From contig PEWE01000029.1 of assembly GCA_002779605.1 (NCBI GenBank), positions 1 through 57,523 on the forward strand: DNA of 57,523 nt, in the 5' to 3' direction. Origin of the DNA: Zetaproteobacteria bacterium CG06_land_8_20_14_3_00_59_53 (lineage in GTDB: Bacteria > Pseudomonadota > Zetaproteobacteria > Mariprofundales > Mariprofundaceae). The notes under the pieces are model-generated. The model ran no database searches, was not told the DNA's origin, and saw only the letters and a list, made by a program, of their open reading frames with translations. The translations under genes and the position numbers were made by a program. How positions within the stretch are numbered: the first letter of the stretch is position 1; each line of letters starts with the position of its first letter. Shown here piece after piece: positions 49,250 through 57,523 of the stretch.

Positions 49250-50902
49250 ATGGCAAACGACATGCTTCCGGCATCCCGCTCCGGTCAGAACGGCACTCTC
49301 ACCCCCATGCCGGAAGTGACCGACTCGGGCGAGCAGGCGATGCCCGCGGGCTTCAACAAGGCATCCTTCGGTACGTTGCTCAGCCAGAACCGCAAGCTGT
49401 TGTTGTTCGCAGCCTCGGGCCTGATGCTGGCCGGATTCCTCAGCATGGTGCTGTGGTCGGCCAAGACCCCCTACCAGACACTTTATGCAGGCATGGATGC
49501 CAAGTCGGCCGCAAGCGTTGTCGAGTATCTGCAGAAGGAGCGCATCCCCTATCAGTTGCAGGGCGAGGGGACGGTGATGGTGCCCGCCGATCAGGTGTAC
49601 GCCGCAAGGCTCAAGCTGGCCGGTCAGGATATCGCTCCGGGTGGCGACAGCGGATTCGAACTGTTTGATAAAAAGGCCGAGTTCGGTATCAGCGATTTCG
49701 CCCAGCAGGTGAACTACCAGCGCGCCATGCAGGGCGAGTTGGCGCGTACCATCGAGGTGTTGCCGATGGTCAGCACCGCCCGCGTGCACATCGTGCTGGC
49801 CAGAGAATCGGCCTTTGCCGACCGCAAGCGCGAGTCCTCCGCCTCGGTGATGCTGAAGCTTACCGGCAGTCAGAAAATGAACCGCGAGAATGTCTCGGCC
49901 ATCCAGAATCTGGTCGCCGCAAGCGTGCCCGGACTTGATCCGGCGGCCGTCACCATCGTCGATGCCGGTGGCAACCTGCTGTCGCGCGACGAGGAACAGG
50001 CTGCACTCGGTGCCGGCCAGAGCCTGCAGGAGACCCAGAGCCGCATCGAGCAGCGTCTGGAAACCCGTATCACCGGCATGCTGGAACAGGTGGTCGGCGA
50101 AGGACAGGCCGTGGTGCGCGTCACCGCGATGCTGAACCGCCAGATGAGCGAGCAGAACAGCAAACAGTTCAATCCGGACGGGCAGGTGGTGCGCAGCCAG
50201 AAGGAAGCCAGTGAAAACCGCAGCAGCACCGACTCCACAGCTCAGGGCGTGCCCGGAACCGCATCCAATACCCCCGGAGCAAACCCGGCCACGGCGCAGG
50301 CTGCGGCCAGCCCTAAGGATTCCGCCAGCCGCAACGAGAGCACCGTCAACTACGAGATCAGCTCGATCACCGAGCACAAGGTGATCCCGTCCGGCGGCAT
50401 CACCAAGATCTCGGTTGCAGCGATTGTCGGCGGCAGCTTCGCCACCCCCGGTGATGCAGCCAGCTTCCAGCCGCGCAGCAAGACCGAACTGAAAACCCTG
50501 CAGGGACTGATCGAAAAGGCCATCGGCTTCGATGAGGATCGCGGCGACTCGGTGGAGATCCAGAGCCTGCCCTTGCTCGATATCACCAGCACCCAGGATG
50601 AGGAAGCGCTATCCGCACAGGAGAACAAGGCCTTCTATCTTGAGCTGGCCCGCTACGGACTGGCCGGACTGGCCATGCTGCTGCTGGCCTTCTTCATCCT
50701 CAGGCCGCTGGCCAGGCTGATCGGCTCCGACCCCGAGAGTAAAAAGAAGGAAGCGGAAGAGAAGGCGGCGAATGCGTCCCTGCAAACCCTCAGCCCGGCC
50801 GCCTTCGCCCACCTTGAAAGCATGCAGCAGGCCCGTCACGCCATCCAGCACCAGCCGGAACGCGCAGGCAAGATCGTCCGCGAGTGGGTGGAACAGGTAT
50901 GA
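49250..50902 (+). CDS. fliF: Flagellar M-ring protein FliF
   Basis: MS-ring subunit, 550 residues. First membrane helix about residues 48-65 (LLFAASGLMLAGFLSMVLW), periplasmic YscJ/FliF domains with YQRAMQGELARTIEVLPMVSTARVHIVLAR, a central low-complexity linker (S, A, P, N rich, about 320-360), second membrane helix about 463-485 (YGLAGLAMLLLAFFILRPL), and a C-terminal cytoplasmic FliG-binding tail. AAGGAG before the ATG. Confidence 0.97.
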   Translation: MANDMLPASRSGQNGTLTPMPEVTDSGEQAMPAGFNKASFGTLLSQNRKLLLFAASGLMLAGFLSMVLWSAKTPYQTLYAGMDAKSAASVVEYLQKERIPYQLQGEGTVMVPADQVYAARLKLAGQDIAPGGDSGFELFDKKAEFGISDFAQQVNYQRAMQGELARTIEVLPMVSTARVHIVLARESAFADRKRESSASVMLKLTGSQKMNRENVSAIQNLVAASVPGLDPAAVTIVDAGGNLLSRDEEQAALGAGQSLQETQSRIEQRLETRITGMLEQVVGEGQAVVRVTAMLNRQMSEQNSKQFNPDGQVVRSQKEASENRSSTDSTAQGVPGTASNTPGANPATAQAAASPKDSASRNESTVNYEISSITEHKVIPSGGITKISVAAIVGGSFATPGDAASFQPRSKTELKTLQGLIEKAIGFDEDRGDSVEIQSLPLLDITSTQDEEALSAQENKAFYLELARYGLAGLAMLLLAFFILRPLARLIGSDPESKKKEAEEKAANASLQTLSPAAFAHLESMQQARHAIQHQPERAGKIVREWVEQV

Positions 50903-51900: not shown

Positions 51901-52619
51901 GCGCACCCGGTTTCACACCGTTGTCCCTGAAAACCATCGAAGGCACGGTGGTAAGCTCGCCGCTTCGCGATTTCGACAAGCCGGCACAGAAGACGGCAGC
52001 GCACCCGGAAACCGACCGCATGCGCGAACTGGAACAGATGCTCAGCGAAGCGCAGGAGCGCAACAAGGATCTCGAACGCGAAACCTACGACAAGGCTTAT
52101 GCCGCCGGTGAACAGGCTGGCATGGAGCTGGGCCGCAAACGCGCCGAGCAGATGACCAGGAACATCGCCGGACTGCTGTTGCAATGCGAGAAGAGCGCCA
52201 GACGGCTGCATGAACGCATGGATGAGGTAGTTTTGGACATCGCCGACGCCGTCATCCGCCATATTATTGACACCATGATCGACGAGCATCCCGAATACCT
52301 GAAGCAGATGATCTCGCAGGCCACCCGCTATCTGCCGGAGCACAAATCCCTGAGTCTGGCTGTCTCGGTACCGGATATGGCCATGTTCGAGCGTCTGCTG
52401 GGCGACACCCCGAACAAACTGATCGCCGATGACAATATCACCCCCGGCACCTGCCGCATCATGGCCAGCGATCACGATATCCTGATCGATCCGCAGGCCG
52501 CGATCAGCGAATGCATGCACCATATCCGGGGCAGGCTGCTGCAGAAAGGTCAGCCCTCGCCGGACGAAGCCGCCGACCACGGCAACAACAGCGGCACGAC
52601 CGACCAGCCGGAATCCTGA
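51897..52619 (+). CDS. fliH: Flagellar assembly protein FliH
   Basis: Peripheral regulator of the export ATPase FliI, 240 residues. Long coiled coil (about 40-100, with GxxxG-like spacing AAGEQAGMELGRKRAEQM) followed by the conserved C-terminal domain that binds FliI. ATGA overlap with fliG and TGATG overlap with fliI. Confidence 0.9.
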   Translation: MSAPGFTPLSLKTIEGTVVSSPLRDFDKPAQKTAAHPETDRMRELEQMLSEAQERNKDLERETYDKAYAAGEQAGMELGRKRAEQMTRNIAGLLLQCEKSARRLHERMDEVVLDIADAVIRHIIDTMIDEHPEYLKQMISQATRYLPEHKSLSLAVSVPDMAMFERLLGDTPNKLIADDNITPGTCRIMASDHDILIDPQAAISECMHHIRGRLLQKGQPSPDEAADHGNNSGTTDQPES

Positions 52620-53977
52620 TGCCCGCGCATAGCGCCTTGTGGAACAACGAATCCCGGCAGAAGGTGCTGGGCAGCCTGAAGCATATCCGCCCCTTCCCCT
52701 CGCTCGGCCGGGTCCGCAAGGTGCTCGGCCCCATGGTCGAGGTGGACGGGCTGCATGCCAGCATCGGCCGCGCCTGCGACATCCACGCCGTGGACGGAGA
52801 AAACATCCAGGCCGAGGTGGTGGGTTTCCGCAACGACAATACGATCCTGATGCCGGTAGGCCATATCCGCGGCATCGCGCCGGGCAACGCCGTGCGCCTG
52901 CGCGCCGAGCTTCCCGGCATGCACATGGGGCATGAACTACTCGGCCGGGTACTCGACGGACTGGGCGAGCCGATGGACGACAAGCCGCTGAAACCGTCAG
53001 GTCCGTTCCGTCCCTTGTTCGGCGAACGCCTGAATCCATGCCATCGTCATATTATTGACAAACCCCTGCAACTCGGGGTGCGCAGCATCGATGCCTGCCT
53101 GACGGTGGGCAGCGGCCAGCGTGTCGGCCTGTTTTCCGGTTCCGGCGTGGGCAAGAGCTCCCTGATGGGCATGATGGCGCGCAATTCCAATGCGGATGTG
53201 AATGTCATCGCCATGGTCGGCGAGCGCAGCAGAGAAGTCCGCGAGTTCATCCGCGACAGCCTTGGCGAAGAGGCGTTAAAGCGCAGTGTGGTGGTGGTTT
53301 CCACCTCCGATGCGCCGCCGGTGCTGCGTATCCGCGCCGCCCTGCTGGCTTCAACGATCGCCGAATATTTCCGCGACCAGGATCAGCAGGTGCTGTTGAT
53401 GATGGACAGCCTCACCCGCTTCGCACAGGCACAGCGCGAGATCGGCCTGATGCTGGGAGAGCCGCCCGCCAGCAAGGGTTATACCCCGTCGTGTTTCGCC
53501 GCCATGGCCGAGGTGCTGGAGCGCGCAGGCCCCGGCGTCGGGCATGGCAACATCAGCGGCCTGTACACCGTGCTCGTCGAGGGCGACGACATCAGCGGCG
53601 ACCCTGTGGCGGATACCGCGATGAGCATCCTCGACGGGCATATCGTGCTGTCCCGTGAGCTGGCCGAGAAGGGTCATTTCCCGGCCATCGATGTGCTGCG
53701 CAGCGTCAGCCGTCTGAGCACCAGTCTTTGTTCCGAGGATATCCTCAAAGCGGCACGCTCCTTGCGTAGTGAATTGTCACTATACGAGCGAATGGAGGAT
53801 ATGGTGAATATGGGTGCTTACGAACGCGGCAGCAATCCGGAACTCGATCGGGTGATCGACCGCATGCCTGCCATCCGTGCCTTTCTGCAACAGCGTCAGA
53901 CCGAAACCGTCAGCCTGGACGATGCCGGACGCAAACTCCTCGAACTGATGAGAACGCACGGGGAGGGCTGGAAATGA
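52619..53977 (+). CDS. fliI: Flagellar export ATPase FliI
   Basis: Type III export ATPase, 452 residues. Walker A GSGVGKSS, Walker B segment VLLMMDSLTRFAQAQREI and the F1-type GERSREVREF are in place; it powers export of rod, hook and filament subunits together with FliH and FliJ. The ATG at 52619 overlaps the fliH stop; upstream frame continuation lies inside fliH. Confidence 0.97.
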   Translation: MPAHSALWNNESRQKVLGSLKHIRPFPSLGRVRKVLGPMVEVDGLHASIGRACDIHAVDGENIQAEVVGFRNDNTILMPVGHIRGIAPGNAVRLRAELPGMHMGHELLGRVLDGLGEPMDDKPLKPSGPFRPLFGERLNPCHRHIIDKPLQLGVRSIDACLTVGSGQRVGLFSGSGVGKSSLMGMMARNSNADVNVIAMVGERSREVREFIRDSLGEEALKRSVVVVSTSDAPPVLRIRAALLASTIAEYFRDQDQQVLLMMDSLTRFAQAQREIGLMLGEPPASKGYTPSCFAAMAEVLERAGPGVGHGNISGLYTVLVEGDDISGDPVADTAMSILDGHIVLSRELAEKGHFPAIDVLRSVSRLSTSLCSEDILKAARSLRSELSLYERMEDMVNMGAYERGSNPELDRVIDRMPAIRAFLQQRQTETVSLDDAGRKLLELMRTHGEGWK

Positions 53978-54423
53978 AACTGCTGCCGCATCAGGTATTG
54001 AAGAAGCTGGCCGAGAACGAGCGCAACAAGGCGCAATACGAACTGGCCGCCCTGAGCCACCAGCGTCAGGAACTGCGCAAACAACGCGAACAGGCGGTCG
54101 CCCACATCCGGCAGGTCCGCGAGCAGAAGGAAAAGGCCATACGCATGACCGTGCAGGCCGGCACGCTGATGATGTACGACGAACTGATCAGCGAGCAGAA
54201 CACCTTGATTGCAAGGCTTGATGCAGCCATTGATGTGCTGCACGGGCAGGAACAGGCACTGCTTCGTCAGTGGCTTTCGCACGACAGCCGCGGCAAGGCC
54301 TTTGACCGAATCGATAAAAAGTTCATCACCGAGGCCAACCGGGTGCTGGACCGTAAACTGCAACAGATCGACGATGACCGCGTTGCCGGCCGGTTGACCG
54401 GCCCGCTGGCTGCGGGAGTCTGA
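53974..54423 (+). CDS. fliJ: Flagellar export protein FliJ
   Basis: 149 residues, almost entirely one long coiled coil rich in Q, E, K and R, the usual FliJ antiparallel hairpin that acts as a central stalk in the FliI ring and escorts chaperones. Overlaps the fliI stop by ATGA. The gene order fliI-fliJ-motE supports the name more than sequence does, as FliJ is poorly conserved. Confidence 0.82.
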   Translation: MKLLPHQVLKKLAENERNKAQYELAALSHQRQELRKQREQAVAHIRQVREQKEKAIRMTVQAGTLMMYDELISEQNTLIARLDAAIDVLHGQEQALLRQWLSHDSRGKAFDRIDKKFITEANRVLDRKLQQIDDDRVAGRLTGPLAAGV

Positions 54424-54425
54424 TC

Positions 54426-55073
54426 ATGCTGGGCGCCGGCCGCGTACTGCTGCTGCTCAGCGTGCTGAGCGTTCTGGTGCTGGCCCGTGCAGGGCTGTCG
54501 TTATGGGCCGAGCAGCCGGCCGATGAGGTCATCGGCTTGGCACAGGCTGCAACCGAACAGGCCGTGAACGAAGCGGCTGCCGGCGATAGTTCCGGAAAAC
54601 AGGGCATGTCCATGCAAGCGATCCCGGAGGCCGAGGCTCTGCCCTACACCCCGGATGATGTCGCCATCAGCCAGGCCGAGCGGGAGACGCTACTGGCACT
54701 ACGCAAGCAACGCGATGAACTCGATGCCCGCCAGAAGGCCATCGATGAACGCGAGAAAGCCATTGCGGAAGGCGAGAAGAAGGTGTCGGAACGTATTGCC
54801 GATCTGGAAGAGCTCGAAGCACGCATCAAGGATATGCTGGCTCAGGAACAGAGCATCAATAACAAGAAGATCAAACGCCTGACCGCCGTATATGAAGGCA
54901 TGAAGGCCGACAAGGCCGCCCCGGTGCTCGCCCAGATGGATCTGCAGACCGTGGTGCAGATGTTCTCGCGCATGGATGAAAAGCAGGTGGGCAAGATTCT
55001 GTCCTTCCTGCCGCCCGAAAAGGCCGTGAAGATCAGTCAGGCGCTGACCGAACGGATCAGCGAAGTGCAATAA
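54426..55073 (+). CDS. motE: MotE family flagellar stator chaperone
   Basis: Membrane-anchored periplasmic protein of 215 residues. N-terminal helix (VLLLLSVLSVLVLARAG), a coiled coil about 80-150 (ERETLLALRKQRDELDARQKAIDEREK), and a C-terminal MgtE-N-like domain (MDLQTVVQMFSRMDEKQVGKILSFLPPEKAVKIS). MotE proteins stabilise the stator protein MotC in other flagellated bacteria. Starts two bases after fliJ and ends the flagellar run; motA/motB genes are not in the window. Confidence 0.87.
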   Translation: MLGAGRVLLLLSVLSVLVLARAGLSLWAEQPADEVIGLAQAATEQAVNEAAAGDSSGKQGMSMQAIPEAEALPYTPDDVAISQAERETLLALRKQRDELDARQKAIDEREKAIAEGEKKVSERIADLEELEARIKDMLAQEQSINNKKIKRLTAVYEGMKADKAAPVLAQMDLQTVVQMFSRMDEKQVGKILSFLPPEKAVKISQALTERISEVQ

Positions 55074-55224: not shown

Positions 55225-57462
55225 ATGAAAGGACTCGCCATGACATCCGTGCTCAAAGACCGTCCCCTGCTCTTCCATCATCTTGAATGGATTCTGATGC
55301 ATCCGCGCTTCGGCATCCTGATGCTGCTGCTCATCGCCATGTCCTTCACCCATAACCAGATGCTGGCCACCATCCTGTTCGTGGTCTTCTGCATCGAGCT
55401 TTCCATGCGTGTGGCCATCATGCGCTACAAAATACGCACCAACCCCTACCGTTCCTCGTTGAACTCCAAGCTGGATGCGCTGTTTCTGGTACTCGATTTC
55501 ATCGGTATCGCATCGCTGCTGATCACCGTACTGAATATCCCGCTGGATGCCGAAAGTGCGGCTGTCGCTCGCCTGCTGCGCGCCTTCTACCTGATGCGCA
55601 CACTCAGGGCCTTCCGTTATATCGACCTGCAAAGCACCATGTATTCGCCCACCTACGGCATGTTCATCTCGCTGGTCATCCTGCTGTCCTTCTTCGCACA
55701 GGACACCATTCTGTGGGTGGTCATCATCTTCTTCAGCGTGGAACTGGCCGTGCGCGCGCTGATCATGCGGCATATGGAATTTGAAACGAAAAAAGAGCGG
55801 CTCAGCGAATGGGGTTACTGGTGGGTCGATCTGGTGGCCACGGTGGTGATGATTCCCGCTCTGGCCGTGGTGCCTCACGGCAGTGCGCTGCGAGCGCTGC
55901 GTCTGATCCGCCTGCTCAGGCCGTGGAGCATCATCCTGCGCAACCTCAGGGATGTGATCCGCGAAGGACAGTTCATGCAGGAGGTGAATCTGATCGTACT
56001 GCTGCTCGGCGTGCTGGCCATCGCCGGTGGTGTGGCCGGACACTTCATGCTGCCGCCTTTCGATTACACACAGGACGGGGTGATCGGGGACATCGACAGC
56101 ACCCTGTTTGCACAGATCTGGTTCTCGTTCCGCCTGTTCACCGACCCGGGCAATGCCATTCTCTACCCGCCCAGCACCAGCATGGCCGTTGTATCGGTCG
56201 TGGCGGTTATCACGGGCGTGTTCATTTTCGCCTTCTTCATCGGCATCGGCGCACAGGTGGTGTCGGGTCTGATGCAGAAACTGCGCAACGAGCGCCTGAA
56301 CGTCACCAACCACATGGTCATGCTCGGCTGGTCGGAAACCGCGCCCTATATCATCGAAAAGCTGAAAAACATTTCCGAACGGCATTTCTCGCGTCTGAAA
56401 CTGGTCATGCTGGGCGAGAGCGAACACGCCCCCGCAGGGCTCGCGCAACAGCGCTGGGTGTCCTACCGCTGGGGCGATATGCAGCAGGTGCGCTCCCTGA
56501 AAAGGGTGAATCTCGGACACGCGCGACAGGCCATCATCAATGTGCCGGACAATGTGCCGCAGGCTATCCAGCTTTCCCACAGCATGTTTTCGCTGCTGGC
56601 CATCCGCAAGGTCAATCCCAATATCTACCTGAACTATGCCTCGCCGGGCTTGGCCCGCCCGCAACTCTCCAGTCATCACCACATCCTGCAGATCGGCTGG
56701 GACAATCTTCAGATGTACAACAAACCCACCGTGGTGATGTCGCATGCCGATGTGCGCGCCAATATGATGCGCAATATCCTCATCTATCAGGATTTCGATC
56801 AGGTGATGGAGCGCCTGATGATCCCGGGTCGTACCGAGGAATCCGCCCTGCAGATCAGTGAGTGGAGCGGCGAGGTCATGGTCGAGAGCGGTCGCGCCTG
56901 GCTCGGCAACAGGGATGGAAGCGTCCGTCTGGATGTCGTTCATCTGGCTGCCCGCCTGCAGACACGCGGTGTCACACTGGTTGCGCTGGCTGATGAGAAC
57001 GGAAAGTCATTCCCGCTGTACAGCTTGGCCGCACACGCCCCCTTCACTACCCGCGCGGCGTTGGCACTGGCGATTCAGCCACGCGATGTGAGTGGCGAAA
57101 TGGCCTATCTGTTCGCCCGCGGGGAACGCGAGGATATGCAAACGGAAAAGACCGGGGGAGCGATGCATATCGCCGGATTCGCAGCCGCCAGCCGGCGAAG
57201 CAAAGAATTACGCCTGGTGATCACCGGCTGGGTGGGATCCTTGCCCTTGCTGCTGAAGCTGTTGCTCAAGGATTTCGAGCGCATCGATGTGCGCATCATC
57301 GATGATGTCACACCGCAGGAACAGGCCGACAATATGGACTATTTGCGCCGCCGGCTCGGCGAGGTGGATACCGCGCTCGGCCGCGTTACCTTCGATGTGA
57401 TCCGCTGGGATTTCACCAATATGAACAGGCTGCGTCCTGAATCAGTGAGTTTACATTGGTAA
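55225..57462 (+). CDS. Ion channel with tandem voltage-sensor modules, CASTOR/POLLUX-like pore and RCK domains, probably truncated
   Basis: 745 residues. Two homologous four-helix modules (about 28-135 and 143-242) each end in an S4 helix with arginines every third residue (R116, R119, R125, R128, R131; then R223, R226, R229, R232), and the S2 segments share ELxxRxxIM. A single pore follows: S5 about 253-275, a re-entrant segment with TDPGNA (306-311) in place of the potassium signature TVGYG, and S6 about 322-345. The TDPGN motif recalls the ADxGNHA filter of CASTOR/POLLUX (DMI1) channels. NAD-binding RCK-like domain 1 starts near 361 and domain 2 near 663. Domain 2 stops after about 80 residues. 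Confidence 0.78.
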   Translation: MKGLAMTSVLKDRPLLFHHLEWILMHPRFGILMLLLIAMSFTHNQMLATILFVVFCIELSMRVAIMRYKIRTNPYRSSLNSKLDALFLVLDFIGIASLLITVLNIPLDAESAAVARLLRAFYLMRTLRAFRYIDLQSTMYSPTYGMFISLVILLSFFAQDTILWVVIIFFSVELAVRALIMRHMEFETKKERLSEWGYWWVDLVATVVMIPALAVVPHGSALRALRLIRLLRPWSIILRNLRDVIREGQFMQEVNLIVLLLGVLAIAGGVAGHFMLPPFDYTQDGVIGDIDSTLFAQIWFSFRLFTDPGNAILYPPSTSMAVVSVVAVITGVFIFAFFIGIGAQVVSGLMQKLRNERLNVTNHMVMLGWSETAPYIIEKLKNISERHFSRLKLVMLGESEHAPAGLAQQRWVSYRWGDMQQVRSLKRVNLGHARQAIINVPDNVPQAIQLSHSMFSLLAIRKVNPNIYLNYASPGLARPQLSSHHHILQIGWDNLQMYNKPTVVMSHADVRANMMRNILIYQDFDQVMERLMIPGRTEESALQISEWSGEVMVESGRAWLGNRDGSVRLDVVHLAARLQTRGVTLVALADENGKSFPLYSLAAHAPFTTRAALALAIQPRDVSGEMAYLFARGEREDMQTEKTGGAMHIAGFAAASRRSKELRLVITGWVGSLPLLLKLLLKDFERIDVRIIDDVTPQEQADNMDYLRRRLGEVDTALGRVTFDVIRWDFTNMNRLRPESVSLHW

Positions 57463-57523
57463 TTTTCTGTTTCTTCTTTTGTAATTAGCTGATTTTATTT
57501 ATGTTTTATGTTACATTAGAACC
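57440..57523. mobile_element. AT-rich DNA interrupting the channel gene, possible insertion boundary
   Basis: From about 57440 base composition falls abruptly to AT-rich, in contrast to the GC-rich gene before it. The last in-frame residues (SVSLHW) no longer look like the RCK fold. A terminus starting near TGAGTTTACATTGG is possible, but no inverted repeat partner or transposase is in view, so the element cannot be named. Confidence 0.4.

Follow-up and report, generated by a model that had tools for sequence, protein, structure and literature searches.

An open reading frame at the end of the window, by which we mean the whole stretch of 57,523 bases that was analysed, raises the question whether one channel subunit can carry two complete voltage sensors ahead of a single pore. 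To our knowledge, each pore domain in the described channels of the voltage-gated superfamily goes with a single sensor. The original prediction read the frame (55225..57462, + strand, 745 aa) as two S1-S4-like blocks followed by one CASTOR/POLLUX-like pore and RCK-type domains, an arrangement that in its view would be new; it was silent on the truncation of the gene by an insertion sequence (IS) and on the flagellar and chemotaxis operon context, both of which we describe here. The window is the entire contig C27 of a 2.37 Mb genome (99.95% complete), whose closest relatives are Mariprofundaceae (Zetaproteobacteria).

The frame was present where predicted, but it is not a complete gene. Homology with relatives stops at residue 737-738, and the terminal 88 bases of the window, starting CCTGAATCAG, recur at six other contig ends, identical over 75-84 bases and with different sequence ahead of them in each. 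Since this IS end starts at 57436, residues 738-745 and the stop codon are encoded by the IS, which rules out a natural short form, and, as the IS is multicopy, its end accounts for the contig stopping at this point. Altogether the IS end (CCTGAATCAGTGAGTTTACATTGGTAA...) is common to seven contig ends. Full-length relatives comprise about 940-1000 aa. The native C-terminal 224 aa found no match anywhere in the genome assembly, and fliK, which comes after the channel gene in close relatives, lies elsewhere (C25:7424) behind unrelated genes; these two observations speak against the remainder of the gene sitting on another contig. The position of fliK indicates that the channel locus has been rearranged, and the window copy, broken by the IS, is therefore probably dead and non-functional. 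Intact copies are held by relatives, where about 50 full-length homologues exist. The features of the locus are collected in Table 1.

Table 1. Channel gene and neighbouring features, in window positions
Feature	Position	Strand	Basis or remark
fliF C-terminal domain	50081-50572		in the window
fliI-like	52511-53977	+	by gene order and ATPase motif only
fliJ-like	53974-54423	+	ORF; gene order as in relatives; Pfam of relatives' genes
MotE-like	54426-55073	+	ORF; gene order as in relatives; Pfam of relatives' genes
Tandem-VSD channel gene, form A, native part	55225..57435	+	residues 1-737; without C-terminal ~220 aa of intact relatives
Module 1, S1	55297..55347	+	family alignment, AF2 helices
Module 1, S2, charge-transfer F55-x-x-E58 + R62	55357..55440	+	invariant 41/41
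Module 1, S3, D91	55456..55512	+	invariant 41/41
Module 1, S4, R116, R119, Y122, R125, R128, R131	55558..55620	+	invariant 41/41
Module 2, S1	55648..55689	+	family alignment, AF2 helices
Module 2, S2, F170-x-x-E173 + R177	55705..55773	+	invariant 41/41
Module 2, S3, D202	55789..55845	+	invariant 41/41
Module 2, S4 + S4-S5 linker, R223, R226, R229, R232	55879..55965	+	invariant 41/41
Pore helix S5	55981..56049	+	AF2, pore profile
Pore helix + CASTOR-type filter T306-D-P-G-N310	56104..56154	+	conservation; bacterial CASTOR pore profile P=1.9e-8
Pore-lining helix S6	56176..56259	+	AF2, pore profile
Gating ring, truncated: cytoplasmic RCK1 + beginning of RCK2	56305..57435	+	Foldseek on intact PV-1 homologue; weak Slo-like_RCK and TrkA_N matches
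End of multicopy insertion sequence, truncating the channel gene	57436..57523	+	seven contig ends identical over 75-84 bases, all with start CCTGAATCAG

In voltage sensors, an F-x-x-E motif in S2 and an aspartate in S3 make up the charge-transfer centre, and S4 carries arginine at every third position. These hallmarks are found in both blocks of the frame. Module 1 reads 'FCIELSMRVAIM' in S2, 'LDFIG' in S3 and 'ARLLRAFYLMRTLRAFRY' in S4, where five arginines and Y122 follow a strict every-third spacing; the corresponding motifs of module 2 are 'FSVELAVRALIM', 'VDLVA' and 'LRALRLIRLLRPW', the last with four arginines at every third residue. The ELxxRxxIM signature said to be common to both S2 helices is as described. 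Among 41 distinct form A relatives, ranging from about 41% identity to the window upwards (over the gene), all 18 sensor positions tested were unchanged, namely 10 in module 1 (F55, E58, R62, D91 and the six S4 residues of Table 1) and 8 in module 2 (F170, E173, R177, D202 and its four S4 arginines). This invariance rules out S4-like repeats that arose by chance, and it upholds the arginine-rich S4 claimed for each block. Further, the transmembrane (TM) region aligns nearly without gaps across all family members.

Profile comparisons are consistent with this picture. The two modules match one another at P = 1.8e-9 and 5.7e-10 (two comparisons), with reversed controls at ~1e-2 to 1e-3. Against a bacterial NaV-like voltage-sensor domain (VSD) profile, module 1 scored P = 3.1e-6 (reversed control 6e-3; against reversed profiles, 3e-3 or weaker), and thus matches ordinary bacterial VSDs. 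Module 2 reached P = 2.6e-6, a less clean match because its arginine-rich composition gives 9e-5 on one reversed profile. The Pfam family Ion_trans covers module 2 and the pore (55705-56247) at E 1.8e-9, with 37.2 bits against a Pfam cut-off of 25; it was also the Pfam family hit most often when module 1 was scanned by itself (19 of 22 members), always under the cut-off (E 0.0021 at best and 0.035 for the window copy). On average the S2-S3 loops carry 5.1 and 3.9 basic residues (K+R) and the S3-S4 loops 0.0, a pattern that obeys the positive-inside rule for a ten-helix protein whose termini both lie inside. Single-sequence searches with the frame gave only COX2_TM at E 4.3 in Pfam and no match in NCBIfam or the PDB. 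When the module-1 profile was run against PDB sequences, neuropeptide Y receptors came up (E 0.013), a match over a segment with many basic loop residues that we put down to chance; the module-2 profile had no match in the same collection.

Structure prediction with AlphaFold (AF2) gave ten TM helices with one pore helix, both from the family alignment (pLDDT 68) and for the intact protein of Mariprofundus ferrooxydans PV-1 (L036; pLDDT 78, pTM 0.76); confidence in the TM part is moderate. Together with the invariant hallmarks, the internal repeat and the Ion_trans matches, these models bear out the two S1-S4-like blocks. A Foldseek search with the PV-1 model retrieved Slo channels (E 6e-15) as well as the gating ring of LjCASTOR, at a TM-score of 0.74 (on target), so that RCK-type domains do follow the pore. 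A Slo profile match across VSD, pore and RCK1 was weak (E 0.0046), and the TM model alone matched only voltage-gated and TRP channels among its best 50 hits, again weakly (best E 0.05). The single pore carries TDPGNA at residues 306-311, in agreement with the original prediction, and its filter is highly conserved (Asp in 40 of 41 relatives, both Gly and Asn in all 41). The filter of LjCASTOR reads ADSGNHA, and its D265N substitution abolished current (PMC6697748). We collected bacterial CASTOR relatives through the Pfam family Castor_Poll_mid (PF06241), the clear ones being L136-L142, and compared profiles: the pore of the present family matched theirs at P = 1.9e-8, and pore plus RCK1 at 2.9e-14, whereas the same procedure against TVGYGD pores returned P = 0.019, the level of reversed controls. 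This lack of a match argues against an ordinary K+ channel, and the likeness to CASTOR/POLLUX pores stands. PF06241 itself (E<=1e-3) was not among the matches listed for the source genome (G000) or any Zetaproteobacteria. The predicted architecture, from alignment and models, is two sensor modules, one pore and a double-RCK ring, with ten TM helices and a re-entrant loop.

Elsewhere in the source genome lies form B, a distant paralogue (C1:244686-245768; ~1200 aa frame; 29% identity), with long N- and C-terminal extensions and a degenerate second voltage sensor. Form B occurs at L057 (G000:C1:240000-250000) and likewise at L060, L063, L065, L066 and L068. Profiles of forms A and B match module by module (module 1, P = 3e-19; module 2, P = 4e-7), and the sensor duplication is therefore probably older than the A/B split. 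In 19 form B rows, some of which are overlapping copies of one gene, the hallmarks of module 1 are kept, with the S2 glutamate changed to aspartate in 3 and the last S4 arginine lost in 4. In module 2, leucine replaces the S2 phenylalanine and two of the four S4 arginines remain. Because form B keeps the module 1 hallmarks while its module 2 has decayed, module 1 looks like the more constrained of the two; and because that decay removed the charge-transfer phenylalanine and two S4 arginines, a second working sensor is not a feature of the whole family. Form A is present in two or three copies in several genomes, and in one Mariprofundaceae MAG (L051:5505-11382) two form A channels stand in tandem near fliD-like genes.

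These comparisons bear directly on what module 1 does. One alternative, which we regard as rather unlikely, holds that the pore takes its voltage signal from module 2 alone and that module 1, although of VSD fold, has a separate job, such as an Hv1-like proton pathway, a partner anchor or an S0-like element. Module 1 is not connected to the pore; moreover, its better conservation between forms A and B, and its full charge set where module 2 of form B decayed, suggest that it may act alone. Yet its hallmarks are the same as those of module 2, the two modules are linked without gaps in all members, and module 1 was never found without a pore. More sceptically, module 1 could be a degenerate S1-S4-like membrane domain left by duplication, with a TRP-like ligand-binding fold and no voltage sensor. 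We consider this highly improbable: a short S1 and the sub-threshold Pfam scores of isolated module 1 would fit it, but the five S4 arginines, the F-x-x-E motif and the S3 aspartate are invariant in all 41 relatives, and a degenerate copy would be expected to shed charges, as module 2 of form B did.

With respect to distribution, the channel family was found in 55 of 78 Zetaproteobacteria genomes and FliF in 54, with both in 51, the channel only in 4, FliF only in 3 and neither in 20 (Fisher 8e-12, kinship ignored). The 39 better genomes gave 25, 1, 3 and 10 in the same order (Fisher 4e-6, kinship ignored). A tandem profile run against 399 Pseudomonadota genomes (E <= 1e-4) had matches in Zetaproteobacteria only. 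A seed-based scan of GTDB genomes, through which alone phyla beyond Pseudomonadota were covered, returned Zetaproteobacteria records and one MAG labelled 'uncultured proteobacterium', and no relatives were found in plasmids or viral contigs.

The gene neighbourhood is often that of motility. In close relatives the order is fliF, fliG, fliH, fliI, fliJ, MotE-like, form A channel, fliK, flgD, flgE, motA, motB, with several identities confirmed by Pfam and others taken from order and sequence; in 20 genomes belonging to three families, a comparison of coordinates places form A ~5-7 kb away from fliF. The form B gene is situated directly 3' of an MCP gene at every locus with upstream sequence, and is itself followed by a response-regulator gene in nearly all loci extending that far, with a CheA-like gene next in several. 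The MotE-like gene of the window has a relative, L033:4739-5404, whose C-terminal part gives an MgtE_N-type match at E 1.8e-5. Three close relatives have a small gene of ~150 aa directly upstream of the channel (L033:5412-5858, L032:5558-6001, L039:5523-5987), of which the L033 copy has no Pfam match; the window is without it, and 150 bases separate its MotE-like gene from the channel. It could be argued that the protein is an ordinary ion-homeostasis channel (K+/Na+/Ca2+) with motility neighbours by coincidence, as RCK rings are typical of homeostatic channels and the form A copies at L048, L055 and L056 lie outside flagellar operons. We find this unlikely, given that it would leave to coincidence the proximity of form A to fliF across those 20 genomes, the constant MCP neighbour of form B and the way in which family presence tracks FliF.

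We therefore favour, as the more probable reading overall, a Zetaproteobacteria-associated family of tetrameric cation channels with a CASTOR-type pore, a double-RCK ring and two tandem VSDs per subunit, tied to motility. Its likeliest role would be that of a cation channel gated by both voltage and ligand that links the membrane potential to motility. If the subunits assemble as a tetramer, two VSDs in each would give eight sensors per channel. Module 2 would gate the pore directly through the S4-S5 linker to S5, while module 1 would be an extra sensor in a more peripheral position, tuning module 2 or cooperating with it. The gating ring could add a cytoplasmic ligand signal, Ca2+ or nucleotide; cations, possibly Ca2+, would pass when membrane potential and ligand coincide, and the channel would thus report the energy state, form A to the flagellar motor and form B to the chemotaxis kinase pathway. 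A precedent for a voltage-gated channel in bacterial motility is NaVBP (Ito 2004, as cited in PMC4225499). With channel genes inside operons for swimming and steering, iron-oxidising marine bacteria may control movement by membrane voltage; no paper linking Mariprofundus flagella to an ion channel was found in the collection of open-access papers searched. More tentatively, and in our view open to doubt, both sensors of each subunit may work and the channel may be a dedicated membrane-potential receptor of motility (form A with the motor, form B with MCP-CheY-CheA), voltage being an energy-taxis input of these microaerophilic iron oxidisers. Given the operon placement, whether bacteria steer by membrane potential, a question of long standing, could be put to a direct test in cultured strains, Mariprofundus ferrooxydans PV-1 among them. 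Likewise, a naturally occurring pair of sensors, each with its full gating charge, would allow a test of sensor-pore coupling, and of whether added gating charge sharpens the voltage response.

Set beside known systems, the family shares with CASTOR/POLLUX/DMI1 and their bacterial relatives a pore with an xDxGN filter, the 'NHxVxLGW' region from S6 to RCK1 and a double-RCK gating ring. Plant members, however, have four predicted TM helices, and the bacterial CASTOR-pore relatives examined (L136-L142) have two and no VSD, with filters such as TDPGY or DSGTM, whereas the present family has ten TM helices, two VSDs and no PF06241 match. Since the CASTOR-type pore comes without a VSD in the bacterial members examined, the family would link the plant symbiosis channels to voltage gating. 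Slo/BK channels (Slo1, Slo2), the best Foldseek match, also combine a VSD, a pore and a double-RCK ring within a single subunit, but with one VSD and a TVGYG/TVGFG K+ filter instead of the two VSDs and TDPGN seen here. RCK-bearing bacterial channels of the Kv type, which turned up as distant matches, have a VSD joined to a pore and TrkA_N/RCK; they differ in having one VSD and TVGYGD, and their pore profile has no match to the family pore. Bacterial NaV channels (NaChBac, NaVBP) share the VSD hallmarks but have one VSD, another filter and no RCK. Two-pore channels (TPC1/2) likewise have two VSDs per polypeptide, each with its own pore domain, while here both stand ahead of one pore. A search of a collection of open-access papers, with few subscription papers or preprints in it, returned no channel that has two sensors for one pore; within that scope the arrangement appears new, as first proposed. 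The parts of this channel are of known kinds, and it is their combination that appears to be new.
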